From: Actinomycetes bacterium
GTDB taxonomy: Bacteria; Actinomycetota; Acidimicrobiia; Acidimicrobiales; Ilumatobacteraceae
DNA: 64,000 nucleotides
Assembly: GCA_025356335.1 (NCBI GenBank)
Contig: JANXUF010000033.1
Location: 62,001 to 126,000, forward strand
Reading direction: 5' to 3'
The position numbers were made by a program, and so were the translations under genes. The notes below the pieces were generated by a model. The model ran no database searches. It saw only the letters and a list, made by a program, of their open reading frames with translations, and had not been told where the DNA came from. Position 1 is the first letter of the stretch; every line of letters begins with the position of its first letter. Below are positions 17,738 to 35,267 of the stretch, in pieces.

Positions 17738-20218
17738 TCAGCGGTGACGACGGCGACCGCGGTCGCCTCCGGCGCCGTTGCGGCCACGATCTCCGCCACT
17801 GCCGTCACGACGCGGTGCGTCGTCACGAGGCAGCGAGGATGCCGGGCCGAGATCGCCGAGTTCGCCGGCCAGTTCGGCGTCGAAGGCGTCCTCGAAGCTC
17901 AACGACGTGGGTGCCATCGCTGCGCCGACGGAGGCGTGCTCACCGTCGTCGGACGACGCAGTTGCCGACGGGGTCGACGGTGCCGAAGAATACGAAGCCG
18001 GTGCCGGTGACTCGCCGGACGGCGCAGCAGCGTCGTCTGCAAGGCTGAGGCTGACCTTGCCTTTTTCGTCGATCTCGTCGACGCGGACTTCGATCTCGTC
18101 ACCGAGGTTGACGACATCCTCCACCCGGTTGATCCGCTTGCCGCGGCCCAACTTGGAGATGTGGATGAGGCCGTCACGACCCGGAAGGATGTTGACGAAG
18201 GCACCGAACTTGGTGATGTTGACGACGCGACCCATGTAGGTGGCACCGACATCGGCCGACGGCGGGGCGATGATCAGCATGATCCGGTAGCGGGCGTCTT
18301 CGACCTTGCGGCCGTCGACGGAACCGATGGTGACGGTTCCGACGACACCGTCGTCGTCGATATTGACGTCGGCGCCGGTCTCCTGCTGGATCGTGTTGAT
18401 GACCTTGCCCTTCGGCCCGATCACCTCTCCGATGCGGTCCAACGGGATGTTGAAACTGAGGATCTTCGGTGCCGTGTCACGGACTTCCGAACGCGGCTCG
18501 GAAATCGCTTCGTTCATCACCTCGAGGATCTGCAGGCGGGCTTCTTTGGCCTGCTGCAGAGCGGCGGCGAGCACATCGGCGGGGATGCCGTCGATCTTCG
18601 TGTCGAGCTGCAGAGCGGTGACCACGTCAGCCGTTCCGGCAACCTTGAAGTCCATGTCGCCGAAGGCGTCCTCGGAACCGAGGATGTCGGTCAGCGTCGT
18701 GTACTTGCCATCGGCATAGATGAGGCCCATGGCGATACCGGCGACAGGCGCCTTGATCGGCACACCGGCGTCCATCAACGCCAGCGACGAACCGCAGACC
18801 GAGGCCATCGACGTCGAGCCGTTCGAACTCATCACTTCGCTGACGAGACGCAGCGAGTAGGCAAACGATTCCTGCGACGGGACGACCGGCAACAGGGCCC
18901 GCTCGGCGAGCGCGCCGTGGCCGATCTCGCGACGCTTCGGCGAACCGACACGGCCGGTCTCGCCGTTGGCCCACGGGGCCATGTTGTAGTGGTGCATGTA
19001 GCGCTTGGTCGTGTCAGGCGTCAACGTATCGAGCTGCTGGTTCATGCGCGGCATCGCCAAGGTGGCGACCGTCAGGACCTGCGTCTCGCCGCGCTGGAAC
19101 AGTCCGGAGCCGTGAGCCGTGGCCAACACGCCGATCTCGGCGGAGACCGGACGGAGATCGCGGACACCGCGGCCGTCCATCCGGATTCCCTCGTCGAGCA
19201 CACGCTGGCGCACGAGCTTCTTCGTCAGGCTGCGGAACGCGTCCTTGATCTCCTTGGTGCGCCCGGCGAATTCGCCGGGTGCCTCGGAAGTTCCTGCCAG
19301 TTCGGCGACGGTCTCCTTGGCGGCGGCGTCGGTAGCGGCATTGCGGTCCGTCTTCTGCGTGATCTTGATGATCTCTGCAAGCTTCGGCGAGCCGACACGC
19401 TGGACGGCTTCCCACACGTCGGTGCCGTAGTCGAGGACCGGGTTGTAGGACAGCGGCTTGATCGGGCCATGGGCCTCGATCACGGCGGCGAGCAGCTGGC
19501 GCTGGAGGCCGATGCTCTCTTTGATCCACACCTTCGACGCTTCGAGGCCTCCGGCGATGACTTCTTCTGTCACCTTCGGGGCGCCGGCTTCGTAGTACGT
19601 GAAACTCTTCTCGGTGCCACCGGCTTCGACCATCATGATGGCGACATCGCCGTTGTCGAGCTCACGGCCGGCGACGACGAGTTCGAAGGTGCCTTCGTGG
19701 CCCTCTTCGAAGGTGGGGTGCGGGATCCATGTGCCCTCTTGGCTGAAGGCGACGCGGACGGCGCCGATCGGGCCGTCGAAGGGGATGCCGCTGATCATGA
19801 ACGCGGCGGAAGCGGCGTTGATGCTGATGATGTCGTGCGGGTTTTCCTGGTCAGCGCCGAGGATCGTCAGGACGACCTGTGTCTCGTTACGGTACCCGTC
19901 GGCGAACGCCGGCCGCAGCGGGCGGTCGGTCAGGCGGCAGGTGAGGATTGCGTTCTCGCTCGGGCGGCCTTCACGACGGAAGAATGCGCCGGGGATCTTG
20001 CCGGCAGCGTAAGCACGCTCTTCGACATCGACGGTGAGCGGGAAGAAGTCGATGCCATCTCGGACATCCTTGGCTGCGTTGGCGGTTGCCAACACGGTGG
20101 TCCGTCCGAGACTGACGACAACTGCACCCTGCGACTGCGGGGCGAACTTGCCGGTCTCGAACGAGAGCGTCTTCTCAGTACCGGCGACCGGTGCTGAGAC
20201 ACGAATGGCCTCTGCCAT
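17738..20218 (-). CDS. pnp: Polyribonucleotide nucleotidyltransferase (PNPase)
   Basis: The 3'-5' phosphorolytic exoribonuclease, 826 residues from this start. Order: RNase PH-like domain 1, helical linker, RNase PH-like domain 2 ('DGRGVRDLRPVSAEIGVLAT', 'GSSLALMDAGVPI'), KH domain ('DRIGEVIGPKGKVINTI'), S1 domain ('YMGRVVNITKFGAFVNILPG'). An Arg/Gly/Asp-rich disordered tail follows, more common in actinobacterial PNPases. The start at 20218 is set by 'aagaaaggaatcaca' and by the family N-terminus; the ORF-track start 76 codons upstream is spurious. Two hairpins occupy the 259-bp leader behind rpsO. Confidence 0.97.
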   Translation of the reverse strand: MAEAIRVSAPVAGTEKTLSFETGKFAPQSQGAVVVSLGRTTVLATANAAKDVRDGIDFFPLTVDVEERAYAAGKIPGAFFRREGRPSENAILTCRLTDRPLRPAFADGYRNETQVVLTILGADQENPHDIISINAASAAFMISGIPFDGPIGAVRVAFSQEGTWIPHPTFEEGHEGTFELVVAGRELDNGDVAIMMVEAGGTEKSFTYYEAGAPKVTEEVIAGGLEASKVWIKESIGLQRQLLAAVIEAHGPIKPLSYNPVLDYGTDVWEAVQRVGSPKLAEIIKITQKTDRNAATDAAAKETVAELAGTSEAPGEFAGRTKEIKDAFRSLTKKLVRQRVLDEGIRMDGRGVRDLRPVSAEIGVLATAHGSGLFQRGETQVLTVATLAMPRMNQQLDTLTPDTTKRYMHHYNMAPWANGETGRVGSPKRREIGHGALAERALLPVVPSQESFAYSLRLVSEVMSSNGSTSMASVCGSSLALMDAGVPIKAPVAGIAMGLIYADGKYTTLTDILGSEDAFGDMDFKVAGTADVVTALQLDTKIDGIPADVLAAALQQAKEARLQILEVMNEAISEPRSEVRDTAPKILSFNIPLDRIGEVIGPKGKVINTIQQETGADVNIDDDGVVGTVTIGSVDGRKVEDARYRIMLIIAPPSADVGATYMGRVVNITKFGAFVNILPGRDGLIHISKLGRGKRINRVEDVVNLGDEIEVRVDEIDEKGKVSLSLADDAAAPSGESPAPASYSSAPSTPSATASSDDGEHASVGAAMAPTSLSFEDAFDAELAGELGDLGPASSLPRDDAPRRDGSGGDRGRNGAGGDRGRRRHR

Positions 20219-20292
20219 TGTGATTCCTTTCTTGGATGCGCCACCCTGGCGCAATTCCTGTTGGAAGCAAGGCCCGGTTCCCAGTCGGCAAG

Positions 20293-20329
20293 CTCCCGTG
20301 CTGCACCTGCACATGCGGTGGAGCGGGAG
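20293..20329 (-). promoter_or_regulatory. Hairpin in the pnp 5' leader
   Basis: CTCCCG(tg)CTGCACC and GGTGGAGCGGGAG can pair over 12 of 13 positions with a 9-nt loop, about 75 nt upstream of the pnp start. In E. coli a comparable leader hairpin is cut by RNase III and then used by PNPase for autoregulation; the same role here is inference. Confidence 0.45.
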
Positions 20330-20435
20330 AATCTCGACTGACAACCGACTCCTGTACCTCGGTTTTTGGTTTGCCCCTGTGACGTCGGGACCCCCGTTTG
20401 ATCGGTACTTCAGTGAATGAAGCGCAGATGTGGAA

Positions 20436-20458
20436 CGAGCGGCCATGCTGGCCGCTCG
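20436..20458 (-). terminator. Hairpin after rpsO (attenuator or processing site)
   Basis: A perfect 9-bp stem CGAGCGGCC/GGCCGCTCG with a 5-nt loop begins 20 bp after the rpsO stop. No T-run follows, so complete termination is unlikely; partial termination or RNase processing between rpsO and pnp is more plausible. Confidence 0.5.
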
Positions 20459-20477
20459 CTCACAGACACTTCATTTG

Positions 20478-20732
20478 TCAGCGACGCAGACCGTTCTTCT
20501 GAACGATTGCCCGGTAGCGCTCGACGTCGATGTTCTTGGCATAGTCAAGCATGCGACGGCGGCGGCCGACCATCATCAGCAGCCCGCGACGGCTGTGGTG
20601 GTCCTTTTTGTGGACCTTGAGGTGCTCGGTGAGCTGGTTGATCCGCGCGGTGAGCAATGCAACCTGGACTTCCGGGGAACCGGTGTCCGTGTCGTGTACT
20701 CGGTGCGCGGCGATCGTGTCCTGTGTGGACAT
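20478..20732 (-). CDS. rpsO: 30S ribosomal protein S15
   Basis: An 84-residue S15, a primary 16S rRNA binder of the small-subunit platform. '[20 protein letters not shown]', '[20 protein letters not shown]' and the terminal 'GLRR' are diagnostic. The start at 20732 is supported by 'cagaaggaaggcaacgat' and by length; the ORF-track form adds ten residues. Linked to pnp as in most bacteria, but separated from ribF, its usual upstream neighbour. Confidence 0.97.
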
Positions 20733-20953
20733 ATCGTTGCCTTCCTTCTGACTTGACGTCACGTGATGGAGGTCGCACCCACCAACGGTGGCAGATGCAT
20801 CACGCCAGGGCCTGGGCTCCGACGGACGGCAGCAACGCTATCGGCCGGACTGTCAAATCCCTCGACAGCAACGTCGCAGCTCAGAGCGTATTCATGACGA
20901 TGTCATCACCGTCTGCAGGAACAGCTGGGCATCGCCCAACCCTGTCATGTCCC

Positions 20954-22525
20954 CTACAGGTCGACCATCGGCTTCAGGGTCAAGCTCGGCTCGTCACGCT
21001 GCAGCCGCTCGAGGCGGTACTTGTTCTCGAACAGCGCCAGCAACGCACCGTCGCTGCGGTCGGCGATACGGATACCGCCGATCTCGCGCAACTTCTGCGC
21101 CGTCGCAGCATCGGTACGCCTGACGACCTGGATGTTGTTGCCGCCGAGTTCGACCTCGACGTTGTACTCGGCACGCATGCGATGCTTGAAGACGTCCATT
21201 TGCAGTGCCCCGACGGTGGCGATGATCGGTCGGGAATGATTCCCGTCTTCGATCAGCGCCTGGATCACGCCCTCGGCATCGAGCTGCTCGACACCGGTGC
21301 GGAACTGCTTGGCCTTCGAGACGTCGAGTGGACGGGCCGAGGCGAACACCTCCGGTTCGAACCGCGGCAGGGGTGGGAACTCGACCGGCGGACCGGCGTA
21401 GACGGTCTCGCCGATGCGCAGGTTACGTGCGTTGACGAGTGCGACGATGTCGCCGGGGAACGCCTCTTCGACGGTCTCGCGCTCTTGGCCGAGGACCGAT
21501 GCAGCGTGCTTGGTCGTCACGACCCTGCCGTTCGACGACTGCGTCAACGGCTCGCCGCGCTCGAAGCGGCCGGAGCACGCCCGCACGAAGGCCATCTGGT
21601 CGCGGTGCGACGGATCGACGTTGGCCTGGATCTTGAAGACGATGCCGGCGAACGGAGCGTCCAACGGACGCATTGCCCCGTCGACCTGTTCACGCGGCGT
21701 CGGCGACGGGGCGATCGAGACGAGCGCGTCGAGCAGTTGGCGCACACCCTGATTCGTCAGCGCAGAGCCGGCGAGCACGGCAGACAACTGGCCGGACTCG
21801 AACGCCTCCTGATCCCAACCCCCGTACGACAGGTCGAGCAGTTCGCACTCCTCCCGAGCTTGCCCGAGCGCAGCACCGGCGAGGGCGATGGCGTCGTCGC
21901 CCTTCAACGTTTCTTCGTCGCCGATGAAGGCGCCGCGGGCAGTACGATCCGCCCGGATCAGCACATCCTGTCGGGTGTCGAGCAAACCGAAGAGAGCGCC
22001 ACTCGGACCGACGGGCCACATCAGCGGTGCGAGTGCGAGGTCGAGTGTGTTGGCGATGTCATCCGCCAACTCCAACGGCGTCAGACCTGGGCGGTCCTGC
22101 TTGTTGAGGAAGGTGATGATCGGAGTGTTGCGAGCGCGGCAGACCTCGAACAGCTTGCGGGTCTGTGGTTCGATGCCCTTCGCCGAATCGAGCACCATCA
22201 CCGCAGCATCGACGGCAGTCAGTACGCGGTACGTGTCCTCGGAGAAGTCCTTGTGGCCAGGCGTGTCGAGGAGGTTCATCATGCAGTCGCCGTAGGGAAA
22301 CTGCAGCACGGTCGACGAGACGGAAATGCCTCGTTCGCGCTCCATCTCCATCCAGTCCGACCGTGCAGCCGTGCGACCGCCACGCGCTTTGACGGCACCG
22401 GCGCTCTGGACGACACCGGCGTACAGCAACAGCTTTTCGGTCAGCGTCGTCTTGCCGGCGTCAGGATGCGAGATGATCGCGAAGGTCCGACGACGAGCCG
22501 CTTCGGTGACGACGTCGCTGCTCAT
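20954..22525 (-). CDS. prfC: Peptide chain release factor 3
   Basis: A 523-residue translational GTPase that recycles RF1/RF2. G1 'SHPDAGKTTLTEKLL', G2 'ERGISVSS', G3 'LLDTPGHKDFSEDTYR', G4 'FLNKQDRPG'. The RF3-specific region 'SRPIIATVGALQMDVFKHRM' near the C-terminus separates it from EF-G and TetM. RF3 is patchily distributed among bacteria, and here it sits in a block that splits ribF from rpsO. A 221-bp gap with no recognised feature separates it from rpsO. Confidence 0.94.
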   Translation of the reverse strand: MSSDVVTEAARRRTFAIISHPDAGKTTLTEKLLLYAGVVQSAGAVKARGGRTAARSDWMEMERERGISVSSTVLQFPYGDCMMNLLDTPGHKDFSEDTYRVLTAVDAAVMVLDSAKGIEPQTRKLFEVCRARNTPIITFLNKQDRPGLTPLELADDIANTLDLALAPLMWPVGPSGALFGLLDTRQDVLIRADRTARGAFIGDEETLKGDDAIALAGAALGQAREECELLDLSYGGWDQEAFESGQLSAVLAGSALTNQGVRQLLDALVSIAPSPTPREQVDGAMRPLDAPFAGIVFKIQANVDPSHRDQMAFVRACSGRFERGEPLTQSSNGRVVTTKHAASVLGQERETVEEAFPGDIVALVNARNLRIGETVYAGPPVEFPPLPRFEPEVFASARPLDVSKAKQFRTGVEQLDAEGVIQALIEDGNHSRPIIATVGALQMDVFKHRMRAEYNVEVELGGNNIQVVRRTDAATAQKLREIGGIRIADRSDGALLALFENKYRLERLQRDEPSLTLKPMVDL

Positions 22526-22561: not shown

Positions 22562-23545
22562 TCAGGACACCATCGGTAGCACGATCTTGGCGGCGAGCTC
22601 GATCGTCTCGAGATCATTGGCCAAACCGGTGTTGAAGATGATGCCGTCGATGCCGGTGTCGAGGATCGCCTGTACCTCTGCAGCGACCTCGTCAGGACCT
22701 CCGTAGATCACCATCGACTTGACCTGCGCCTGCATCTCCTCCGGCAGGTCGGCGACCTTCGCTCCGCCGAGGCGGACGGACAGCTTCGCTTCCGCAGCTT
22801 CCATCGTCGGCGCAGCGATCAATGTCGCCAGCCTGGTGCGGCAGATCTCCTTCGGATCTCGACCGAGGTTGGCGCAGTGCTCGTCGAGTACGCCGATCAA
22901 GCGCGTGAGCTGCGCGGTATCTCCGAAGAGGTTGCAGGCGTCAGCGTATTGGGCGACCATCCGCAGCGTCTTCTTCTCGCCGCTGCCACCGATGAGCACC
23001 GGCGGGCCACCGGCCTGGACCGGCTTCGGGAAGTTCATCGCCTCCTTGGTGTGGAACCACTTGCCGTCGAACGTCGTGTGCTCGTTCACGAACATGCTCT
23101 TGACGATCTGCAACGCTTCTTCGAGCTTCTCGAATCGTTCGGTGAAGCTGCCGAACTCGAAGCCGTATGCGTCGTGTTCCTGCTCGAACCACCCGGCACC
23201 GATCGCCCAGATCGCCCGCCCGGACGACACGATGTCGAGCGTCGAGACGACCTTGGCGAGGAACGCCGGGTTGCGGTACGTGACACCGCCGACCATCGCC
23301 CCGAGGCGGACCTTCTTCGTCCTGGCGGCGATCGCCGAAAGGATCGTGTAGCACTCGAGCATGTTCTCGCTCGGCTGACCGATCATCGCCAACTGATAGA
23401 AGTGGTCCATCACGTAGACGGAGTCGTAGCCCGATTCCTCGGCCAACACCGCCTGGGCGAGGACGGCTTCGAACAGTTCGCTGCTCGGGACATCGGGATA
23501 GGTGAAGCTCGGAATCTGTAGGCCAAGTTTGATCAGATCGCTCAT
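22562..23545 (-). CDS. LLM class (probably F420-dependent) oxidoreductase
   Basis: A 327-residue luciferase-like barrel: 'ESGYDSVYVMDHFYQLAMIG', 'LGAMVGGVTYRNPAFLAKVV', 'SSGRAIWAIGAGWFEQEHDA'. The region 'PVLIGGSGEKKTLRMVAQYA' matches the phosphate/cofactor-binding part of F420-dependent members. The gene is 36 bp upstream of prfC on the same strand and divergent from the chorismate mutase-VOC gene. Substrate unknown. Confidence 0.83.
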   Translation of the reverse strand: MSDLIKLGLQIPSFTYPDVPSSELFEAVLAQAVLAEESGYDSVYVMDHFYQLAMIGQPSENMLECYTILSAIAARTKKVRLGAMVGGVTYRNPAFLAKVVSTLDIVSSGRAIWAIGAGWFEQEHDAYGFEFGSFTERFEKLEEALQIVKSMFVNEHTTFDGKWFHTKEAMNFPKPVQAGGPPVLIGGSGEKKTLRMVAQYADACNLFGDTAQLTRLIGVLDEHCANLGRDPKEICRTRLATLIAAPTMEAAEAKLSVRLGGAKVADLPEEMQAQVKSMVIYGGPDEVAAEVQAILDTGIDGIIFNTGLANDLETIELAAKIVLPMVS

Positions 23546-23646: not shown

Positions 23647-24459
23647 ATGAAGCGACGAAGCGGGCATCTGGCGTCTACCGTTTCACGGGTGAGCGACCTG
23701 GCAGCACTCCGTGCACGCATCGACGAACTCGATCGGCAACTCGTGCGCGTTGTCGCTGCCCGCCTCGCCGTCTGCGAAGAGGTCGCCCAGTTGAAGGCCG
23801 GCTCCGACACTCCGGTGATCCAACCTCAACGGGTGCGCGACGTCGTGACCTCGCGCCGCCAATGGGCGATCGACGACGGCGTCGACCCTGACTTCGTCGA
23901 GCAGCTGGTACGCGTGCTGCTGAGTGAAACTCACCGCATCGAAGTCGCCGGTGCGAGACCCGACCCGGCGCCCGACAAGCTGGCCGCCAGCCAGCAACGA
24001 TCTGCGATCGACACCGTGGCCACGCGCATCGACCACGTCGTCGTCGCCGTCAAAGACCTCGACCGCGCCGTGGACCTCTTCTCGAACCAGCTCGGATTCC
24101 ACCGCGAGCCGCTCGCCGGCGGGGAGGCACCGGGGTTGGCGGCGATGACGGCAGGTGGCGTGACCGTCGTGCTCGTGTCCGCCGAGGCCAGTGCGTCGAT
24201 CGCCGACTATCTGGCCACCAACGATTCGGGGGTGCAGCACATCGCCATCGAGGTACTCAACGCCCGCTACGCCAGAGCGTCATTGGAAGCCAACAACGCT
24301 GCGCTGCTGACCGACATCGTCGTCGACGAGCACGGCCACGAGCAGTTCTTCACTGTCAAGGACCCGATGAGCGGCGTGCAGATCGGATTCATCTCACGTA
24401 CGGGTCACCGTGTCGGGGTCAGTGCCGCCAACGTGTTGGCACTCTTCGATTCGCTGTGA
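23647..24459 (+). CDS. Chorismate mutase-VOC domain fusion protein
   Basis: A 270-residue two-domain protein. Residues about 17-100 form an AroQ-type chorismate mutase ('LAALRARIDELDRQLVRVVA', 'RLAVCEEVAQLK', 'VIQPQRVRDVV'); the Arg, Arg, Lys and Gln expected at the active site can be aligned by eye. Residues about 127-260 form a VOC domain like the 4-hydroxyphenylpyruvate dioxygenase group ('RIDHVVVAVKDLDRAVDLFS', 'SGVQHIAIEV'), but the third metal ligand position reads 'GVQIGF', with no Glu. The start may be this ATG or GTG at 23689. Its stop overlaps the next gene (GTGA). The reaction of the fusion is unknown. Confidence 0.75.
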   Translation: MKRRSGHLASTVSRVSDLAALRARIDELDRQLVRVVAARLAVCEEVAQLKAGSDTPVIQPQRVRDVVTSRRQWAIDDGVDPDFVEQLVRVLLSETHRIEVAGARPDPAPDKLAASQQRSAIDTVATRIDHVVVAVKDLDRAVDLFSNQLGFHREPLAGGEAPGLAAMTAGGVTVVLVSAEASASIADYLATNDSGVQHIAIEVLNARYARASLEANNAALLTDIVVDEHGHEQFFTVKDPMSGVQIGFISRTGHRVGVSAANVLALFDSL

Positions 24460-25808
24460 GACAGGCCGGCCGGCAGATGGGACTCGGACGGACAATTGCC
24501 GTATTGACGACGGCGATCGTCTCGCTCGGAGCATGTTCCAGCACCTCCTCGACCGCTCCCACGACGACCGCAGCCGGCGCTGTGACCAACACCCCTGGGG
24601 ACACGACAACGGCGGTCTCCACCGTCGCCGGGTCGATCCCGACCGAAACGACTGCTCCCGGAACCGATGGCGGGGGAACCGCACCGGCCACCGCTGACGC
24701 GACCACCGCTGCGAGCGCAGCGACGACACTACCCGTCATCTCGACGAGCCCGGCGAACGCCGCTCCGTCGGGGACCGTCACCGCTGTCAAGGCTGGCTTC
24801 CTCGTTGCCGCCGACCGCTGTGCCGCCAACAAGGCTGCGGGCCCGATCACTTTCGCGACGGGCCTCGACTTCGCCGCGTCGGCAGCCACCGTCGATGTCC
24901 TCGTCGCCAAACAGGCGCGCTACTTCGAACAGATGTGTCTCGATGTGCAGATCAAACCGGGTCGCTCGACCGACAACTATGCCGCTGTCGGCCAGAACCA
25001 GGTGCAGTTCGGTGCCGCCGATTCGTTCAGCGAAGTGATGCAGTACGGAGCGAGCACGCAATCGAACTTCGTCGTGCTCTCCGAGGAGGGGAAGACACCG
25101 CTCGACACGCTGATCGTCAAGGACGGAGCGGCTCCCACGGTCGCCGATCTTCGTGGTCAGACGATCGGTGTCGACGGCACGATCCCGACGCCGATCCAGG
25201 CAATGTTGGCGGCCAACAGCCTCGTCGCCGGGACGGATTACCAGGTCGCCGATATCCAGCAACAGTACGGGCTCGATCCGACGGTACAGATCGCCATCCC
25301 GACGATCGCCGCCTTCCCCGCCTCGAAATCCGTGCAACCAGGCGTGCTCAATCGGGCAATCGTGAAGTACCACACGTTCGATCCGAGCGACGCCGGCATC
25401 CCCGGCAACTTCGGCCTGCTCTACACCAACCAGGCGTTTGCGACCGAGTTCCCGAGTGCGGTCCAGGATTTCGTCCGCGCATCGATGCGCGGCCTGGAGG
25501 ATGCCACCGATGACGTCGGCGCAGCATCGAAGACGGCCTACGACCTGGCGATCGCCGAGGGCAACCCCGCTGCGCTGACCCCCGACGGTGAGAACTACCG
25601 CTGGAGGACCGAGGCGGACCTGATCGCCAAGTCGACGCCGCCTGGACAGCCGTATGGCATTCCCGATGTCGCCGGGCTGCAGGCGGAGGTCGACAGTGAT
25701 GCCAACCTCGGCCGTTTCGGCAGTACCAAGCCGATTATCGACACCCACGTCGACGTCAACACCATCGCCAGTGTCTACAACGCAGACGGCAAGGTCATCT
25801 GGCCCTGA
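24456..25808 (+). CDS. Orphan ABC substrate-binding lipoprotein (NMT1/THI5-like)
   Basis: A 450-residue exported lipoprotein: basic N-terminus, hydrophobic segment, lipobox 'VSLGAC', a Thr/Ala/Pro-rich linker to about residue 110, then a binding domain with 'TVDVLVAKQARYFEQMCLDV' and 'DLRGQTIGVDGTIPTPIQAM'. This resembles proteins that bind pyrimidine precursors, taurine or nitrate-like ligands. No permease or ATPase gene is adjacent. The start may be GTG at 24456 (overlapping the previous stop) or ATG at 24477. The tight coupling to the chorismate mutase fusion suggests a shared, possibly aromatic, substrate; this is only inference. Confidence 0.7.
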   Translation: MRQAGRQMGLGRTIAVLTTAIVSLGACSSTSSTAPTTTAAGAVTNTPGDTTTAVSTVAGSIPTETTAPGTDGGGTAPATADATTAASAATTLPVISTSPANAAPSGTVTAVKAGFLVAADRCAANKAAGPITFATGLDFAASAATVDVLVAKQARYFEQMCLDVQIKPGRSTDNYAAVGQNQVQFGAADSFSEVMQYGASTQSNFVVLSEEGKTPLDTLIVKDGAAPTVADLRGQTIGVDGTIPTPIQAMLAANSLVAGTDYQVADIQQQYGLDPTVQIAIPTIAAFPASKSVQPGVLNRAIVKYHTFDPSDAGIPGNFGLLYTNQAFATEFPSAVQDFVRASMRGLEDATDDVGAASKTAYDLAIAEGNPAALTPDGENYRWRTEADLIAKSTPPGQPYGIPDVAGLQAEVDSDANLGRFGSTKPIIDTHVDVNTIASVYNADGKVIWP

Positions 25809-25957: not shown

Positions 25958-26905
25958 TCAGGCCGATTGGCGAACATCGATCGACGCCAGCCTCGCCAGA
26001 TAGACCGACTCGAGTTCGTCGGCAAGCGTCTCGACGTCGAGCATGTCGAGTTCTGTCACGCGATCGACCTGCCATCCGATGACGTGGCACTGTCGATCTC
26101 GGCGTTTGTCCTTCGTCGTTCCCTGGAGCAGCAGGTGATCCGGATGGACGTCGATCTCGATCGCCCATCGAAGCTCCGGTATCGACAGATCGATGCGAAT
26201 CGGCGGATGGTCCGGCAGATCGAGTAGGCGAACCTGACGAACGATCGGTGTGCCCTTGCGTTTCATGGCCATCTCGAGGACGACCTCGGGATGGGATTCG
26301 AGCGCCGGAGCGTTGCCACGTTCGATCAGCAGACGGGCAAATCGCAGGGAACCCGTTCGCCGCGAATGAGCGAGTCGCCTGGCGTAGTACACGAGCGAGA
26401 AGAACGTGCAACGCCGCTTTTGAATCGACTGCTCGATGACCGAAAGGAGGTCGTCTGTGGACAGTGCTGCTGAGAGGTCGAGTAGCAATCGTTGGGGACT
26501 GGCAACAGTGATGCCGTCGCTGCGTTTCGTGACGTCTGCCGGCGTGACCGCAGTCGACTGATGGAAAATGGTGTCGCCGCTATATTCGATATGCAACCCG
26601 TGGGGCACGGTGAAATGGATCTGTTCGCTGGCCGGCATGCGGCGATATCCCTCCAATCTCCCTGCCGTCGGGCCGGACACGAAGCCAGTCGGGTGGGCGA
26701 GACAGAGCGCGACACAGCGCGACTCCAGGGTGATCGGCGCTGATGTGATCCGATATACGCGCTTGAAGAGCAGGTCGAGGATCTGTTCCTCGACCAGCCG
26801 TCGTCGTGCTCGCCGGCCGACACCCGCGTCGGTGAGCATCTGGCCGGTTGCAACTCCGTGATGTTGACGAAAGAGCTTCGTCGCTGCTGGGGTGAGAGAT
26901 GACAC
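25958..26905 (-). CDS. AbiEi-like antitoxin/transcription factor domain protein
   Basis: A 315-residue protein. The N-terminal part ('LFRQHHGVATGQMLTDAGVG', 'RRRLVEEQILDLLFKRVYRI') looks like the winged-helix AbiEi antitoxin_4 region; the middle part carries 'TVASPQRLLLDLSAAL', and the C-terminal part ('IRIDLSIPELRWAIEIDVHP') resembles a DUF559/Vsr-like nuclease fold. Such solitary proteins are frequent in actinobacteria. The GTG start is chosen because 'ggaggttcccac' precedes it; the track start lacks this. No AbiEii toxin gene is adjacent. Short inverted repeats flank the gene on both sides. Confidence 0.65.
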   Translation of the reverse strand: MSSLTPAATKLFRQHHGVATGQMLTDAGVGRRARRRLVEEQILDLLFKRVYRITSAPITLESRCVALCLAHPTGFVSGPTAGRLEGYRRMPASEQIHFTVPHGLHIEYSGDTIFHQSTAVTPADVTKRSDGITVASPQRLLLDLSAALSTDDLLSVIEQSIQKRRCTFFSLVYYARRLAHSRRTGSLRFARLLIERGNAPALESHPEVVLEMAMKRKGTPIVRQVRLLDLPDHPPIRIDLSIPELRWAIEIDVHPDHLLLQGTTKDKRRDRQCHVIGWQVDRVTELDMLDVETLADELESVYLARLASIDVRQSA

Positions 26906-26982
26906 GTGGGAACCTCCGCATCGAAGTGATGGCGAGGGGGAAGTCGAGTCACGTGCGACTCTATTGCCGGGCACCACCGCAT

Positions 26983-27084: not shown

Positions 27085-28041
27085 TCAGGAGCTGTTGTCG
27101 AGCGCCATCGAGGCTCTGGCGTGTTCGACGTCGAGCTTCAACTGGCCGATGATGGCGTCGATGCCGTCGAACTTGCGCTCACTGCGCAGGAAATGAGTGA
27201 ACGACACATGGGCGAGCTCTCCGTAGAGGTCGCCGTCGAAGTCGAGCAGATGCGCTTCGAGGAGCGAATGATCCGCATGCTCATAGAACGTCGGGCGGCG
27301 ACCGAGGTTGATTGCGCAGGGGTGGACGATGCCGTCAGGGCGGCGGTACAGCCCGGCGTACACGCCGTCGGCAGGCAGGCACACCGTGTTCGGCACGACC
27401 ACGTTGGCGGTCGGGAATCCGAGCAGGCGCCCACGCTGGTCGCCGGTGACGACGGGGCCGCGAACCTCGAACGGACGGCCGAGCATCGCTGCCGCGGTTT
27501 CGACCTGACCACCGGCGAGTGCACGGCGGATTGCCGTGGAACTCACCGGCTCCTCGACACCGTCGACGCGGGACACGAGGTCCATCGGGTTGACCTCGAA
27601 GTCGTCGATCAGGCCGAGTTCCATCAGCAGTTCGACGTTGCCGTGACGCTGATAGCCGAAATGGAAGTCGGAGCCGACGACGATGTGTTTGGTGCGCAGG
27701 CAGTCGACGAGCACCTGCTTGACGAAGCGGTCGGGCGACAGCCGTGATTCCGCCTCGTCGAAGGTCACCAGCGCCGTTGCGTCGACGCCGGTGTCGGCGA
27801 GCAGTTCGAGTTTCTGGTCGAGATCGGTGAGGAATCGCGGCGCTGACTCCGGACGAACGATCGTTGCCGGATGACGGTCGAAGGTGACGACGACGCTGCG
27901 GCAGCCGAGTTCTGCGGCGGCGCGTTTGACCTCCTCGATCACCGCCCGATGACCGAGATGAACGCCGTCGAAGGCGCCGATGGTGATCACGGCCCGTTCA
28001 GTCGGCCAGGGAGATACCGAAAGATCGGCAATGACCTGCAC
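27085..28041 (-). CDS. ribF: Bifunctional riboflavin kinase/FAD synthetase
   Basis: A 318-residue RibF that converts riboflavin to FMN and FAD. The N-terminal adenylyltransferase domain has 'GAFDGVHLGHRAVIEEV', 'VVTFDRHPATIV' and 'VSSTAIRRALAGG'. The C-terminal flavokinase domain has 'GRLLGFPTANVVVP', 'GVYAGLY', 'INLGRRPTF' and 'LEAHLLDFDGDLYG'. Last gene of a long operon behind truB. In other actinobacteria rpsO follows; here a 6.3-kb block intervenes. Confidence 0.95.
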   Translation of the reverse strand: MQVIADLSVSPWPTERAVITIGAFDGVHLGHRAVIEEVKRAAAELGCRSVVVTFDRHPATIVRPESAPRFLTDLDQKLELLADTGVDATALVTFDEAESRLSPDRFVKQVLVDCLRTKHIVVGSDFHFGYQRHGNVELLMELGLIDDFEVNPMDLVSRVDGVEEPVSSTAIRRALAGGQVETAAAMLGRPFEVRGPVVTGDQRGRLLGFPTANVVVPNTVCLPADGVYAGLYRRPDGIVHPCAINLGRRPTFYEHADHSLLEAHLLDFDGDLYGELAHVSFTHFLRSERKFDGIDAIIGQLKLDVEHARASMALDNSS

Positions 28042-28050
28042 GGTGCGAGG

Positions 28051-28938
28051 CTAACGCTCGAAGGCGTGTGCGAGCACTACCGACGGTTTCGCCTGGGCAA
28101 GTCCGAACGGCTCGTAGACAGCGATGAGCTCGCCGTTCGGAGCCGTGACGGCCCAGGGGCCTGTTCCTTCGAAGGCGGCGATGACCCGTCCGTTGCCGAT
28201 GAGTTCGACGGTCGATTGGTCGACTGCGACGACCGGGACACCGCGCAACGCCTCGATCAACGGCAACAACTCGCAGCTCTCGGGCGGGTGCGCCTCGGCG
28301 ACGACGAACCTGCCGACCGATGTACGGCGCAGATTGCGCAGATGTGCTCCCCCACCGAGCAGCCGGCCGAGATCGTCGGCGAGCGTGCGAATGTAGGTGC
28401 CGGTCGAACATGTCACGTCGATGCAGAAGACGCCGGGATCATCGGTTGCGGCGGCGGTGAACGAGTGGATCTGCACCGGCCGCGCTTCACGCTCGACTTC
28501 GATTCCCTCGCGGGCGAGTTCGTGCAACCGGCGACCGTCGACGCGACGGGCAGACACCATCGGTGGTGTCTGCAGGATCTCGCCGGTCAGGCTGTCGGCA
28601 ATCACTCGCCGCACGTCGTCGAGTGTGATTTCCGACATGTCGTAGGTCGCCGTGACCTGTCCATCGGCGTCGAGGGTGTTCGTCGAGCTGCCGAGCACGA
28701 CCTCGCCGACGTACGACTTGTCGCTGCCGAGCAGTGAACTCAACAGGCGCGTACCGTCGCCGACGCCGATGAGCAGAACGCCCGTGGCACTCGGGTCGAG
28801 CGTGCCGGCATGGCCGATCCGCTTCTCTCCGAGACGTCGTCGGAGCACGCTGACGACGTCGTGACTGGTGACGCCAGACGGCTTGTCGACAATGCAGAAC
28901 CCGTGAACCGTCGGCGGCTTACGGCGCGCCATCCGCAC
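28051..28938 (-). CDS. truB: tRNA pseudouridine(55) synthase
   Basis: A 295-residue TruB that makes pseudouridine 55 in the T-loop. 'GFCIVDKPSGVTSHDVV' and 'RIGHAGTLDPSATGVLLIGV', with catalytic Asp48, are diagnostic; 'CSTGTYIRTLADDLG' follows. The start overlaps the end of rbfA by about 20 bp; an alternative ATG lies two codons in. The C-terminal extension resembles the actinobacterial TruB C-terminal domain. Confidence 0.95.
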   Translation of the reverse strand: MRMARRKPPTVHGFCIVDKPSGVTSHDVVSVLRRRLGEKRIGHAGTLDPSATGVLLIGVGDGTRLLSSLLGSDKSYVGEVVLGSSTNTLDADGQVTATYDMSEITLDDVRRVIADSLTGEILQTPPMVSARRVDGRRLHELAREGIEVEREARPVQIHSFTAAATDDPGVFCIDVTCSTGTYIRTLADDLGRLLGGGAHLRNLRRTSVGRFVVAEAHPPESCELLPLIEALRGVPVVAVDQSTVELIGNGRVIAAFEGTGPWAVTAPNGELIAVYEPFGLAQAKPSVVLAHAFER

Positions 28939-29380
28939 CTACGTCTGTCACCTTCGACGACGCTTCGATCACGTCGACGTTGGGATCGACGGGACGCTCG
29001 GGAATCGGGTTCTCGCGGAGGATCTGCTCGATCCGGGCGGCACCGCGCAAGACCTCGTCAGGCCGAAACTCGAGGATCGGCGTCTTGCGCGCCCGGATCT
29101 GCGAACCGATAGCGCCCTGGAGGCGGATGCGATGGGAGTTGAAGGCGGCGATGACTTCGTCGTCGGCGCTTGCTCCGGCGAGAGCGTCGAAGAAGACGAT
29201 GCCGCGATTCAGTTCGGGATCGACGTCGATGCTGGTGATGGCGACGAGCACGAGACGCTCGTCATCGATCCGCTCCAATTCCTCGGCAATGACCTCCCGC
29301 AGCAGTTCGCCGAGGCGAGCCGTTCGCTGATATCGCTGGGGGGATGACGACGCTGGGCGACGACGCTGTTGCTTACTCAT
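28919..29380 (-). CDS. rbfA: 30S ribosome-binding factor A
   Basis: A 153-residue RbfA, a KH-type assembly factor for 16S rRNA maturation: 'RTARLGELLREVIAEELERI', 'ITSIDVDPELNRGIVFFDAL', 'RIRLQGAIGSQIRARKTPIL'. The start at 29380 forms ATGA with the DUF503 stop, which decides it over the track start three codons upstream. The acidic C-terminal tail is variable in the family. Confidence 0.94.
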   Translation of the reverse strand: MSKQQRRRPASSSPQRYQRTARLGELLREVIAEELERIDDERLVLVAITSIDVDPELNRGIVFFDALAGASADDEVIAAFNSHRIRLQGAIGSQIRARKTPILEFRPDEVLRGAARIEQILRENPIPERPVDPNVDVIEASSKVTDVGADGAP

Positions 29381-29662: not shown

Positions 29663-30421
29663 TCAAACGCGTTGTGGGACCACCTGCGCAGGGTGTCCGT
29701 CGACAACGGCGTCGGCGGGAACGTCAACACTACGGCGGATGTAGGCCAATGCCTGTAGACCGGCGACGGACGTCAGGATGCCGGCGTCCGCACCGCCGAC
29801 GGTGACCGTCGATCCGACCGCGGCGGGGGCGGTCAGCACGATCCGTTCGAGGTGGTGAGGAGCATGGTTGCCGCGGCTGTCGACGCGGGCGACGAGTTCC
29901 TGGCCGGTGTAGCACCCCTTCTTGAAGTTGGCTGCGAGTTCGACGAGTCCGGTCTCGGCCGGGATGATGCCTTCCGTCAGCTCCCCGATCCCCGGCCACC
30001 CTGCGCCGACGCGGGCCAACTCGGCGTCCGTCTCCGAGCCTTCGTGAGCTGATTCGGCGACGAGGTGCGCGCCCTGCCCCCACCATCCGGCCAGCGACCG
30101 GCCGGTTGCTGCTGCGTCGGGGGCAACGTCGACGAACAGGCTGTCGCGTGTCAGCGTTGCCTTCGTCCTGATGAGGAATCGGCGAAGGCGTGCCTCGACA
30201 GCGTCACCCTGGCCAGGCTCGATATCGAGCCGGAAGGTGTCTGCTTCCAGGTGTTGGACGCGCAGCACGAACCCGAGCTTGCCGCTCGGCTCGAGCAGGA
30301 AGCTCCATGCCGAATCACCGACCGCCAGACCGAGCACATCCTGGGACAGCTGACCCTGGAGATACTTTCCTGCGTCCGGCCCGATCACGTCCACGACATC
30401 TCTGCGTCGAATTGCGCTCAT
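29663..30421 (-). CDS. ygfZ: YgfZ/GcvT-like folate-binding Fe-S maintenance protein
   Basis: A 252-residue homologue of tetrahydrofolate-binding YgfZ, which helps maintain or repair iron-sulphur enzymes. The hallmark 'KKGCYTGQELVARVDSRG' contains the conserved cysteine. N-terminal 'RDVVDVIGPDAGKYLQGQLS' fits the GcvT-like fold. The start forms ATGA with the trpE stop; the ORF-track extension runs through trpE in another frame. One base separates its stop from the DUF503 start. Confidence 0.9.
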   Translation of the reverse strand: MSAIRRRDVVDVIGPDAGKYLQGQLSQDVLGLAVGDSAWSFLLEPSGKLGFVLRVQHLEADTFRLDIEPGQGDAVEARLRRFLIRTKATLTRDSLFVDVAPDAAATGRSLAGWWGQGAHLVAESAHEGSETDAELARVGAGWPGIGELTEGIIPAETGLVELAANFKKGCYTGQELVARVDSRGNHAPHHLERIVLTAPAAVGSTVTVGGADAGILTSVAGLQALAYIRRSVDVPADAVVDGHPAQVVPQRV

Positions 30422-31992
30422 GCAACCGTTCCTCCCGCCGACCGGGTGGCCGTCATCGTCCTCGCCGCAGGGATCGCTGCGAGCAGCGCCGCCGCCTTGT
30501 TGCGGCATTCCAGGTCTTCGTCGTCCGGAATCGAGTCGGCGACGATGCCGGCCCCCGCTTGTAGGTAGGCCTCGCCGGTCGGGCCGACGAACATCGTGCG
30601 AATGGCGATCGCCGTGTCGAGGTTGCCGGCGAAATCGACGTAGCCGACGACACCGGCGTACGGACCCCGCTTGCACGGTTCGAGGGCGTCGATGATCTCC
30701 ATCGCCCTGACCTTCGGCGCGCCGCTGACCGTTCCGGCGGGGAGCGTCGCTCGTAGTACGTCGATCGGCCCGAGCCCGTCGACGAGCGTGCCGGTGACCT
30801 GCGACGTCAAGTGCATCACATGGCTGTACTTCTCCAACGTCATCAGTTCGTCGACCGTGACGGTGCCGAATTCGGCGACCCGACCGACGTCGTTGCGAGC
30901 GAGGTCGACGAGCATGATGTGCTCGGCGACCTCCTTCGGGTTCTCCATCAACTCCCCCGCCATACGCCGATCGTCTTCGTCGTTGCGTCCGCGGCGACGG
31001 GTGCCGGCGATCGGGCGGGAAACGACCTGACCGTCGATCAGCTGCACCATCGGTTCTGGCGACGACCCGACGATGGTGATCTCGGGGTGGCGCACGAAGT
31101 ACATGTATGGACTCGGGTTGATCTGACGGAGGACGCGATAGACGTCGAACGGGTCGGCTTCGAGCGTCAGGTCGTAGCGCTGGGCGAGCACGACCTGGAA
31201 GATGTCGCCGGCACGGATGTGCTCTTTGGCGACCTCGACAGCCTGCTGGTACATGCCGTTGGGCATCGACGATTTGATCGACGGCAGATCCTCGCCGGCG
31301 ACGGGCGGCTGGACGGCACTGTAGGCAAGCGGTCGGCTGAGGTCGAGGACCGCTCGACTGACGCGTGCGACAGCCTCGGCATAGGCATCGTCGAGGGTAC
31401 CGCTGTCGAGGCCGAGTACCGGCGTGCTCTCGATCAGGTACACGCGTTGGCGCCAATGATCGAACGCCGCCAGCGAACCGATGACGCTCATCACGGCGTC
31501 GGGAAAGTGGCGATCGTCGCCCGGCACGTCCGGCAGTTTCTCGACCTCGCGGATCACGTCGTACCCGAGGTACCCCATCACCCCACCCTGTAACGGTGGC
31601 AACTCGGCGAGGTGCGGTGCACGATACTCGCCGGTCAATGCGTCGAGCGCTGCCAGCATCCCTCGATCCAGCGGCACGGACGCAGGGATCTGCCCATCGA
31701 CTTCGATCAACCCGTCGCGGAGCACCAACGTCGCCAGAGGATTGCGGCCGACGAAGGAAAACCGACTCCAGCGTTCGCCGTGTTCCACCGATTCGAGCAG
31801 GAATCCACGCCCGTCACCGACGAGTTTGGCGTAGGCGGCGACAGGCGTTTCGAGGTCGGCGAGCAGCTCAGTCCAGACCGGAACGACGGTGTGATCGTTG
31901 GCCAGGGCGCGAAATTCGGCGAGGCTCGGTTTGATCCTCAACCCGTTCGGCCCGACACCGCCAACGACGGGCTCGGAGACGCTCACAGTCAT
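30418..31992 (-). CDS. trpE: Anthranilate synthase component I
   Basis: A 524-residue chorismate-utilising enzyme, first step of tryptophan synthesis. '[20 protein letters not shown]' is the N-terminal tryptophan-feedback (LLES) region, and '[12 protein letters not shown]', '[11 protein letters not shown]', '[15 protein letters not shown]', '[20 protein letters not shown]' are catalytic-domain motifs. The start forms ATGA with hisI. The hisI-trpE linkage matches the known actinobacterial his-trp arrangement. No trpG is adjacent. Confidence 0.95.
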
Positions 31993-32351
31993 ACGCCTGC
32001 GCCGAAACTGCGGAAGAAGCACGAGTAGTTGCCGGTGTGACAAGCGCCATTGCCCTCCTGCTCGACCTTGAACAGCAGCGTGTCGCCATCGCAGTCGTAG
32101 AACGCCTGGCGAACGAACTGGCGGTCGCCACTGGTCTCACCCTTGCGCCACACTTCCTTGCGGCTGCGGCTCCAGTAGACCATCCGTCCCTCGGCAAGGG
32201 TCAGACGGAGCGTCTCCGCGTTCATCCACGCCATCATCAGGACCTCGCCCGTCGCCAGGTCCTGGGCGATCGCCGGCACGAGCCCGCGGTCGTTGTAGAC
32301 CACCGTGGCGAGCTCGTCGTCGGATACCTGGATCGGAGTAGCTGTCGGCAC
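31989..32351 (-). CDS. hisI: Phosphoribosyl-AMP cyclohydrolase
   Basis: A 120-residue HisI. '[20 protein letters not shown]', '[20 protein letters not shown]' and '[20 protein letters not shown]' hold the conserved Asp triplet and zinc-binding cysteines. No HisE domain is fused. It is followed by trpE with a 4-bp overlap and preceded by hisF after 120 bp. Confidence 0.96.
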
Positions 32352-32386
32352 GGGGTCAATCCTACGCCGACCGATCCGTGCGCTCC

Positions 32387-32440
32387 CGGGAGTTCTTCGG
32401 CGTTGCGCGTGCTGGCGCCTCCGACGGAGTTCTTCGGCCC
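32387..32440. repeat. Direct repeat between hisF and hisI
   Basis: 'cgggagttcttcggc' and 'cggagttcttcggc' lie about 38 bp apart in the 120-bp gap, which is otherwise blank. A tight operon partner would normally be closer, so the gap may hold a promoter or mRNA structure. Function unknown. Confidence 0.5.
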
Positions 32441-32471
32441 GTTTGCCGCCAGATCTGGCGGGCAGGTGGAC

Positions 32472-33245
32472 TCAGTTCTCGTTGGTGCGGACGTTGATGC
32501 CGGCGGCGCTGATCACCGCTTTGGCCTCGGCAATCGTGTGCTCTCCGAAATGGAAGATCGAGGCCGCGAGCACGGCGTCGGCGCCGCCGATGGTGATGCC
32601 GTCTGCGAGGTCCTGTAACGAGCCGACCCCGCCACTGGCGATGACCGGCACGGTGACAGCGTCGGTCACCGCTCTCGTCAGTTCGTTGTCGAAGCCCTGG
32701 CGCGTGCCGTCGCGATCCATCGAGGTCAGCAGGATCTCGCCCGCTCCGAGCGCGACGGCACGTATCGACCACTCGACGGCATCGGTACCTGTCGGCGTTC
32801 GGCCGCCGTGCAAGAAGACTTCCCAACCGGGTTCGCCGTTCGTTCGTCGTCGCCCATCGATGGCGCAGACGACGCACTGGTTGCCGAACTCGGTGGCGAT
32901 CTCGGTGATCAGTTCCGGCCGCTCGAACGCCGCCGTGTTGACACTGACCTTGTCGGCTCCGGCGCGCAGCATGCGCCTGGCGTCGTCGACACTGCGGATG
33001 CCGCCGCCGACGGTGAACGGGATGAACACCTGATCGGCGACGTGGGCGACCATCTCGACCATCGTCTCGCGGCCATCGGAACTGGCGGTGATGTCGAGGA
33101 AGACAAGTTCGTCGGCGCCCTCTGCGTCGTACCGTGCCGCCAACTCGACAGGGTCGCCGGCATCACGCAACCCGACGAAGTTGACACCCTTGACGACGCG
33201 GCCGTTCGTGACGTCGAGGCAGGGAATCACTCTGGCGACACGCAT
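32472..33245 (-). CDS. hisF: Imidazole glycerol phosphate synthase, cyclase subunit
   Basis: A 257-residue (beta-alpha)8 barrel. '[19 protein letters not shown]' holds the first catalytic Asp; '[20 protein letters not shown]' the second. It pairs with HisH. It is on the same strand as hisC-B-H-A, but a groES-like gene on the opposite strand and a palindrome separate it from hisA. Confidence 0.96.
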
Positions 33246-33303
33246 CGGACCATCCTACGGTTGGGCTCGATCGACCTCTCGGGGCCGAACTCCCGAGACC
33301 GTG

Positions 33304-33350
33304 CCGAGTCACGGAATGTCGCACGACGTGCGACATCCGATGACTCGGGA
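33304..33350. repeat. 47-bp palindromic element, copy A
   Basis: Outer arms 'ccgagtca' and 'tgactcgg' and perfect inner arms 'atgtcgcac'/'gtgcgacat' around a 3-nt centre; only the 4-nt joints are unpaired. Copy B at 41660-41706 has the same length and about 35 of 47 identical positions. It lies between the divergent hisF and groES genes. Confidence 0.75.
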
Positions 33351-33438
33351 ACGACAACGACGCTGTGTCTCGTTGCCGCCCAGGTGAAAACCAACTCGAG
33401 TTGGGCGATCTCGATAGCGGGCGAACGCGGATACCGTT

Positions 33439-33768
33439 GTGTCCGTGAGCAGCCAGGCGAAACTCCCGATCAAGATGCTGAACGATCGTCTGCTGGTGAA
33501 GATTTCCAAGGAGGACGGCGAGCGACGTTCCTCCGGCGGCATCGTCATCCCCGCCACCGCACAGGTTGCCAAGCGGCTCGTCTGGGCGGAGGTCGTGGCC
33601 CTCGGGCAGAACGTCCGCGCTGCCGAAGCGGGCGACAACGTGCTGTTCAGCCCCGATGACCGCTTCGAGGTCGAGGTCCAGGGTGAGGACTACATCATGT
33701 TGCGTGAACGCGACCTCCACGCAGTCGCCGCCAGCCGCATCGAGGGTTCGACCGGGCTGTACCTGTAA
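33439..33768 (+). CDS. Solitary GroES-like co-chaperonin
   Basis: A 109-residue single-domain GroES fold: 'IKMLNDRLLVKISKEDGERR' 'SSGGIVIPATAQVAKRLVWA', 'VVALG', 'AGDNVLFSPDD', 'DYIMLRERDLHAVAA'. The mobile-loop glycine pair is retained. The C-terminus continues to 'GSTGLYL', unlike classical GroES, which ends soon after the ILAV-type strand. The start is GTG (33439) or the next GTG (33445). No groEL lies in the window, and the gene is antisense within the his cluster. It may be a GroES paralogue rather than the main co-chaperonin. Confidence 0.85.
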   Translation: MSVSSQAKLPIKMLNDRLLVKISKEDGERRSSGGIVIPATAQVAKRLVWAEVVALGQNVRAAEAGDNVLFSPDDRFEVEVQGEDYIMLRERDLHAVAASRIEGSTGLYL

Positions 33769-33820
33769 CGCGCCTGTTCGAAGCCGAACGAGATCTCGAT
33801 CCTCAGCTGGGAGTCGAGGG

Positions 33821-34603
33821 TTACAGCCCAGTTGCGGATCGTCCGGCAAGCGCCTGCAACGCCTCGGCCACCGTGAAACGCTGTTCGTACAGTGCCTTGC
33901 CGACGATCACCCCGCCGATGCCGCCAAGCGATCCGAGCGTGCGTATGTCATCGAGGGTCGAAACTCCCCCACTGGCGATCACCGGAATCGGTGAATCCAA
34001 TCCGGCCTGACGCAACCCGTCGACGTCGGGACCGACGAGCATGCCGTCCCTGCTGATGTCGGTGATCACGAACGCCGCAGCGGCCGGGAATCGTCGGAGG
34101 GCATCGACCAGCTGCACGCCTGACGATTCCGTCCATCCGCTGACTGCGAGATCCCCCGCTCGATGGTCGAGACCGACGGCAACGGCAACGAGCGCCGCGA
34201 CGTCATCGACGATGGACGGATTCCGAACCGCTGCTGACCCCATGACGACTCGGCCGACGCCGAGGCCGGCCAACTCAGCGGCGTCTTCGACCGTTCGGAC
34301 GCCGCCGCCGGCCTGCACGACAGCCTGGCCCGCCACTGCGGCGGCGATCGTGGCGACGACGGGCCGATTGACCGGATTGCCGTCGCGTGCAGCGTCGAGG
34401 TCGACGACATGGATCCACGTTGCACCGGATGCTGCGAAGCCGCAGGCAATCGCCACCGGGTCGTCGCCGTAGATCTGTTCGCGGCGGTAGTCACCCTGCG
34501 CTAGGCGGACGGCACGGCCACCACGCAGGTCGATCGCCGGGAACAGCTCGACTGCGCCCGACACCGCGCGCCCGCTCCGAGACGCCGGCGTCGAATCAGC
34601 CAT
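33821..34603 (-). CDS. hisA: ProFAR isomerase (HisA)
   Basis: A 260-residue barrel enzyme. 'LFPAIDLRGGRAVRLAQGDY' begins the fold with the catalytic Asp; 'AVVQAGGGVRTVEDA' and 'ITDISRDGMLVGPDVDGLR' with the second Asp follow, and '[14 protein letters not shown]' is the phosphate-binding loop. In actinobacteria this is often the dual HisA/TrpF enzyme PriA; no separate trpF is in the window, so PriA activity is possible. It overlaps hisH by 8 bp. Confidence 0.93.
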   Translation of the reverse strand: MADSTPASRSGRAVSGAVELFPAIDLRGGRAVRLAQGDYRREQIYGDDPVAIACGFAASGATWIHVVDLDAARDGNPVNRPVVATIAAAVAGQAVVQAGGGVRTVEDAAELAGLGVGRVVMGSAAVRNPSIVDDVAALVAVAVGLDHRAGDLAVSGWTESSGVQLVDALRRFPAAAAFVITDISRDGMLVGPDVDGLRQAGLDSPIPVIASGGVSTLDDIRTLGSLGGIGGVIVGKALYEQRFTVAEALQALAGRSATGL

Positions 34604-35267
34604 CTGTGTTCACCAGCCGGGATACGCCGACGAAGTTGGTCAACAACTGCAGTCCGGCAGCTGCCGATTTCTCCGGATGGAACTGCGTCGCGAAGACAGA
34701 ACCACGCCGGAACGCCGCATTCAACGTCGATCCGTATTCGACCGTCGCAGCGATGTCAGCGGGATCCTCCGGCACGCCGTGCAGCGAATGCACGAAGTAC
34801 AGCCACGGCGAACTGCCGAGACCTGCGAACATCGGGTCGCCACGGTGTGCGTCGCCGATCGACAGCTGATTCCACTGCATCTGCGGGCGCTTGACACCTG
34901 CTGGTATCCATCGGATCGCGCCCGGAATGATGCCGAGTCCCGGCTCGGACGGCGCTTCCTCGCTCATCCCGAAGAGCATCTGCATCCCGACGCAGATGCC
35001 GAGGAATGGACGGCCGTCGCCGGCTGCGCCAACGGCGAGATCGGCAAGACCCGCAGCATGGAGCGACCGCATACATGCACCGAAGTTCCCGACGCCGGGC
35101 AGCACGACGGAATCAGCGGCGGCGATCAGACCCGGATCGTTCGTCAATCTGGCGTCAGCGCCACAATGCTCCAACGCCCGCTCCGCCGATCGCAGATTTC
35201 CGATGCCATAGTCGAGGACGGCAACCAGCGGGCGTCGATCCGGCCGTGCCTGGAGGGTCTCGGTCAC
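34596..35267 (-). CDS. hisH: Imidazole glycerol phosphate synthase, glutaminase subunit
   Basis: A 223-residue class I amidotransferase. Nucleophile Cys92 is in 'LGICVGMQMLF'; the His/Glu pair is in 'TQFHPEKS'. 'VLDYGIGNLRSAERALEHCG' is the HisH N-terminus. It supplies ammonia to HisF. Start and hisB stop form ATGA. Confidence 0.96.
   Translation of the reverse strand: MTETLQARPDRRPLVAVLDYGIGNLRSAERALEHCGADARLTNDPGLIAAADSVVLPGVGNFGACMRSLHAAGLADLAVGAAGDGRPFLGICVGMQMLFGMSEEAPSEPGLGIIPGAIRWIPAGVKRPQMQWNQLSIGDAHRGDPMFAGLGSSPWLYFVHSLHGVPEDPADIAATVEYGSTLNAAFRRGSVFATQFHPEKSAAAGLQLLTNFVGVSRLVNTDG

Follow-up and report, generated by a model that had tools for sequence, protein, structure and literature searches.

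A gene in the DNA analysed here, a stretch of 64,000 nucleotides from a member of the Ilumatobacteraceae (the window), encodes a chorismate mutase (CM) domain of AroQ/CM-like type and a VOC domain of the HPPD/4-hydroxymandelate synthase (HMS) kind in one reading frame, and this fusion is the only recognisable chorismate mutase in the genomes that carry it. Our reading of the whole, to which we give roughly even odds (about 0.5), is that the sole mutase is a CM-like replacement of the ordinary enzyme, that the VOC domain takes up a ligand but does not oxygenate it, and that the substrate-binding lipoprotein (SBP) encoded downstream is a positional neighbour.

The fusion gene

The first-pass annotation had proposed an AroQ-type mutase and an HPPD-like VOC domain in one chain, and both were recovered in frame. 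Pfam CM_2 (PF01817) matched residues 21-99 (E 3.5e-18, 68.8 bits against a cut-off of 27), Glyoxalase/VOC (PF00903) matched residues 127-247 (E 4.7e-11), and matches to HMS and HPPD profiles are described below. Structure prediction of the two domains with AlphaFold, suggested there as a check, gave a helical N-terminal mutase domain and a VOC domain of two modules (mean pLDDT 79.5, pTM 0.66). The frame is not a chance one, because full-length homologues at 52-69% identity (the window itself left out) span 15 genera of the family. Judged from the possible starts of these relatives and from the coding score, GTG 23689 is probably a likelier start than the ATG listed in Table 1.

Table 1. Positions in the window of the fusion gene, its domains and the surrounding genes.
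Feature	Position	Strand	Basis or remark
CM-VOC fusion gene	23647..24459	+	CM_2 and Glyoxalase domains in a single frame; ATG 23647 as listed
AroQ/CM-like domain	23707..23943	+	PF01817; aligned with PheA of E. coli and the CMs of the family
VOC domain of HPPD/HMS kind with HPPD-like C-terminal tail	24010..24456	+	Profile, alignment and structure comparison
NMT1/THI5-type substrate-binding lipoprotein (SBP)	24477..25808	+	PF09084, 56.9 bits (cut-off 20.5); lipobox SLGAC
prfC	20954-22525	-	Located where relatives have ABC ATPase and permease
F420-type LLM oxidoreductase	22562-23545	-	Located where relatives have ABC ATPase and permease
ribF, truB, rbfA	27085..29380	-	Conserved flank of the locus
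pnp, rpsO	17738..20762	-	Conserved flank, other side of the locus

Distribution

The same architecture was present in 39 of the 61 sampled genomes of the family, 38 of them with a full-length homologue and one with the gene split over two contigs, and it is kept even in streamlined genomes of 1.5-2 Mb. Twenty genomes had one canonical stand-alone CM at another locus and no fusion. None had both, and every genome with either had a single CM_2 domain. The genome counts are not to be read as independent events, because on the ribF tree very few gains or losses are needed to account for the distribution of the fusion. Two genomes (G019 and G038, genus g20) had neither form, with no match to CM_2 or to AroH; both are fragmented MAGs, G019 nonetheless has a PheA-type gene, and either incomplete assembly or another replacement of an unrecognised kind would explain them.

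Outside the family, no full-length fusion was found in 296 genomes of the class and 397 of the phylum. A scan of 84,980 species yielded 80 listed fusion loci, with 67 further relatives beyond these; the titles of those listed are actinobacterial, mostly Acidimicrobiia or Ilumatobacteraceae MAGs, and a few (e.g. Bifidobacterium breve, Ferrithrix) look like wrong MAG titles. The literature searched held no description of a CM-VOC fusion.

Pathway context

AroH-type mutases, which have another fold, were found in none of the 61 family genomes. Single genes for a prephenate dehydratase (PheA) with an ACT domain, a prephenate dehydrogenase (TyrA) and a type II DAHP synthase are present in the window genome. 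Since PheA and TyrA are present and no other mutase is recognisable, the fusion would have to supply prephenate, and its presumed chorismate mutase activity is deduced in this way from the absence of alternatives. HPPD scored above its cut-off in 6 of the 61 family genomes and not in that of the window, and a coupling to homogentisate-type late aromatic metabolism was ruled out on this count. The idea of the first-pass annotation that the fusion joins early and late aromatic metabolism did not hold, because the genome lacks HPPD, the metal site of the VOC domain is incomplete and the gene is the sole recognisable mutase.

The mutase domain

In the N-terminal domain the catalytic Arg and Lys residues, R22, R39, K50 and R62 (E. 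coli R11, R28, K39 and R51), are invariant in all 28 aligned fusions, as is E99 at the position of E. coli Q88. A Glu at the latter position occurs naturally in secreted MtCM (Glu109; PMC10520331). The equivalents of E. coli D48 and E52, though, are Q59 and V63 in 28 of 28 fusions, while the stand-alone CMs of the family retain Asp and Glu there. By alignment, the domain departs from canonical AroQ at these two substrate-contacting residues.

The best NCBIfam model for the CM domain was TIGR01803 (chorismate mutase family protein), which we take to include PchB and PapB-type enzymes. The window protein scored 67.5 bits, under the cut-off of 73.35; the model matched all 28 fusion members, which share with those of TIGR01803 a QP-RV motif and the ending E-T-x-R-x-E. 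The stand-alone CM of the family that was tested scores as a clade-E CM, well above the cut-off of that model. The nearest kin outside the family are small stand-alone CM-like proteins from two other actinobacteria (L215 and L217). Both score above the TIGR01803 cut-off and adjoin glutamine-amidotransferase/chorismate-binding (PabA/PabB-type) genes, neighbours with which they probably make up aminodeoxychorismate synthase-mutase pairs that serve secondary metabolism.

In a tree that has few alignment columns and in which L217 forms a long branch, the fusion CM domains grouped with these two proteins, apart from the stand-alone CMs of the family (support 100/98). Because the stand-alone CMs occupy other, conserved neighbourhoods, the picture suggested by the sequences is that a CM-like mutase at a new locus took over from a canonical one, rather than that the old enzyme was decorated.

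The VOC domain

Foldseek searches with the predicted VOC domain returned methylmalonyl-CoA epimerases at the top, followed by HMS and HPPD. The profile of the fusion family matched HMS (E 2.4e-13), C-terminal end included, and matched HPPDs too; TIGR01263 matched 28 of 28 members, all under its cut-off (29.8 against 277 bits for the window protein). While profile comparison over the first 100 residues did not tell HPPD and epimerase apart, the last 50 or so gave a mean z of 3.9 to HMS, 2.2-2.7 to HPPD and -0.1 to the epimerase-like protein encoded by a separate gene of the window genome (L182), and the fusion tail SRTGHRVG..NVLALF fits the ERxG..GxN..ALF of the HPPD/HMS C-terminus. Methylmalonyl-CoA epimerase, which resembles the domain in being a single VOC domain and in its first 100 or so residues, was ruled out as its identity by the unlike tail and by an incomplete His-Gln-His-Glu ligand set, the Gln and Glu positions being Val and Gly.

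With HPPD and HMS the domain shares the VOC fold, both metal His residues, two residues of LLQIF (Gln and Phe) and two of the C-terminal helix (Asn and Phe). It differs from them in having one VOC domain instead of two, in the attached mutase and in the metal site. The metal ligands H130 (24034-24036) and H198 (24238-24240) are invariant in the 28 aligned members, but the position of the metal Glu, G247 (24385-24387), is Gly in 27 and Ser in one, which bears out the earlier observation that the third ligand lacks Glu. Also invariant are GHEQ and, besides the two metal His, the buried-type polar residues H231, E232, Q233, R251 and R255. Among positions mapped from HPPD, Gln and Phe of LLQIF and the Phe of the tail (GNF..LF) never vary and the tail Asn hardly does, whereas some substrate contacts (Ser and Asn of the first module) are unconserved. 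Identity of 90% was reached at 8 of 9 mapped pocket positions against 43 of 138 elsewhere in the domain (p=0.0009), a supportive rather than an independent test because the positions were picked from remembered HPPD structures and confirmed by alignment. The pattern fits a domain that retained its binding pocket and gave up the full metal site. Since the metal Glu is missing, ligand binding with no oxygenation is the probable role of the domain, as the first-pass annotation had plausibly suggested.

The lipoprotein and the transporter locus

The gene downstream of the fusion is, as originally described, that of an ABC-type binding lipoprotein (Table 1). The overlap of the fusion stop with the lipoprotein start is real for one start option, GTG 24456, but not for ATG 24477, a start no less good given its lipobox LGAC, and relatives inspected (e.g. 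L093, L119) show a short gap. The two genes likely share a transcript.

The lipoprotein had been called an unexpected partner without transporter genes. ATPase and permease are indeed absent at the window locus, but relatives carry both just upstream of the fusion. Sister genera that lack the fusion have an ATPase-permease-SBP set between rpsO and ribF (L160, L162, L163, L166, L169, L170), and in fusion genera the order is ATPase-permease-CM/VOC-SBP at no fewer than 17 loci, 12 of which continue with ribF. The lipoprotein is therefore not an unexpected partner, because sister genera have the same transporter operon in the same place without the mutase. Comparison of gene order identifies it as a remnant of an ATPase-permease-SBP operon that has lost ATPase and permease in the window. 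The pair itself is conserved, with the SBP directly downstream of the fusion on the same strand at 23 of the 80 loci listed from the species scan. In the streamlined 1.5-2 Mb genomes the fusion occurs without the SBP, often between ribE and fbiC; in the window genome fbiC is on another contig. No riboswitch match above the Rfam gathering score was found at 7 transporter or fusion loci, so these give no hint of the ligand of the importer.

Discussion

Chorismate mutase is a textbook case of a branch point that gains regulation by fusion or complex formation, with ACT, DAHP synthase, PheA or TyrA as partners. In a single family of mostly freshwater actinobacteria, some members seem to have swapped the ordinary mutase for a CM-like domain joined to an HPPD-type domain. 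Known AroQ fusions are those with PheA and ACT (P-protein), with TyrA (T-protein) and with DAHP synthase, and an exported fusion of CM with cyclohexadienyl dehydratase has been described as well (PMC10520331, PMC1173090). The CM-VOC protein is like them in that its chain, which would serve the Phe/Tyr branch, holds an AroQ-type domain and one more domain, but its partner is a VOC domain, neither a pathway enzyme nor ACT, and its mutase belongs to the CM-like subfamily, with Gln and Val at the D48 and E52 positions. Its TIGR01803 kin L215 and L217, by contrast, are small and stand-alone and lie beside PabA/PabB-type genes, whereas the window protein is a fusion and the sole mutase.

In the reading that we favour, a CM-like domain related to aminodeoxychorismate mutases would have displaced the canonical stand-alone AroQ of some family members and would turn chorismate into prephenate for PheA and TyrA, its gene having presumably inserted between the permease and SBP genes of an ABC importer operon. 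The VOC domain, of HPPD/HMS kind, would no longer oxygenate after loss of the metal Glu but would have kept its pocket. Its most likely ligand would be one of the pathway's aromatic acids (4-hydroxyphenylpyruvate, phenylpyruvate, prephenate or an aromatic amino acid), and the ligand-bound domain may regulate or stabilise the mutase. Only necessity points to chorismate as the substrate, because D48 and E52 have given way to other residues and the closest relatives outside the family probably act as aminodeoxychorismate mutases; nor is a second sensor strictly needed, because PheA already has its ACT domain. If the VOC domain senses 4-hydroxyphenylpyruvate or a related acid, a dioxygenase would have been turned into a metabolite sensor, a new mode of aromatic-pathway control. 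The natural contrast between genomes with the fusion and genomes with the canonical mutase opens the question to direct test. The literature searched held no VOC regulatory domain of this kind, and HPPD-inhibitor chemistry offers ready probe ligands.

Other readings of the two domains were weighed against this one. The CM domain might have an analogue of chorismate (aminodeoxychorismate or isochorismate) as its main substrate, with prephenate coming from an unrecognised enzyme or a side activity, as the QP-RV motif, found in TIGR01803 members and PchB, and the PabA/PabB-type neighbours of L215 and L217 would suggest. We regard this as distinctly unlikely, given that the fusion is the sole mutase of genomes that have PheA and TyrA and no AroH, streamlined ones included, and that no aminodeoxychorismate synthase gene was seen beside it at the loci inspected. 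A purely structural or dimerisation role of the VOC domain, which would prop up a weak mutase (e.g. as a substitute for the activating type II DAHP synthase) and bind no regulatory ligand, is unlikely. Actinobacterial CMs can need a partner (PMC4281200), that of M. tuberculosis being activated by type II DAHP synthase. The window genome has such a synthase and some HPPD substrate contacts are lost, but the invariant buried-type polar residues and the conservation of the pocket exceed the needs of a scaffold.

VOC folds support several chemistries, and the invariant GHEQ and metal His residues would suit an active isomerase, lyase or oxygenase that works on prephenate or an arylpyruvate and holds its metal through the two His and another residue, such as E232 or H231. 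The usual Glu is Gly, however, the epimerase Gln is absent, the window genome has no HPPD-linked pathway and no reaction is known at this point of the aromatic pathway; we hold such activity to be decidedly improbable. In cupin-fold Fe/alpha-keto-acid halogenases the carboxylate ligand has become Ala or Gly, letting chloride bind. By analogy, a His-His-Gly iron site might make the domain an HPPD-fold halogenase or oxidase of an aromatic keto acid derived from mutase-supplied prephenate, an idea to which we give hardly any weight; no HPPD-type halogenase was found in the literature searched. Very doubtful, too, is a true functional partnership in which the lipoprotein works with the fusion, for example by importing or sensing an aromatic compound. 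The pairing at 23 of the 80 listed loci, and the retention of the SBP in the window despite the loss of ATPase and permease, would be in keeping with it. Genera that lack the fusion, however, have the same SBP at the same place together with its ATPase and permease, the fusion survives without the SBP in small genomes, and a further complete ATPase-permease-SBP set is present in the window genome (L180). We infer that the lipoprotein is a neighbour by position and not a biochemical partner, the pairing reflecting a gene lodged in a transporter operon.

Other features of the loci

At several fusion loci (L083, L085, L117, L144, L147 and others) a gene for bifunctional FO synthase (CofGH/FbiC) adjoins the fusion, often together with one for riboflavin synthase, and ribF lies on the opposite side, which gives these loci a flavin/deazaflavin character. 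Tyrosine is a substrate of FO synthase, a link that may have no bearing on the fusion. Between the SBP gene and ribF, the window has a gene (25958-26977) with a weak AbiEi_4 match under the cut-off and, by eye, an endonuclease-like C-terminus; it lies outside the conserved locus in the relatives inspected. Further along, at 30418-36924, trpE is followed by genes whose translations resemble, by eye, hisI, hisF, hisA, hisH, hisB and hisC, the run being broken by a groES-like gene on the opposite strand.
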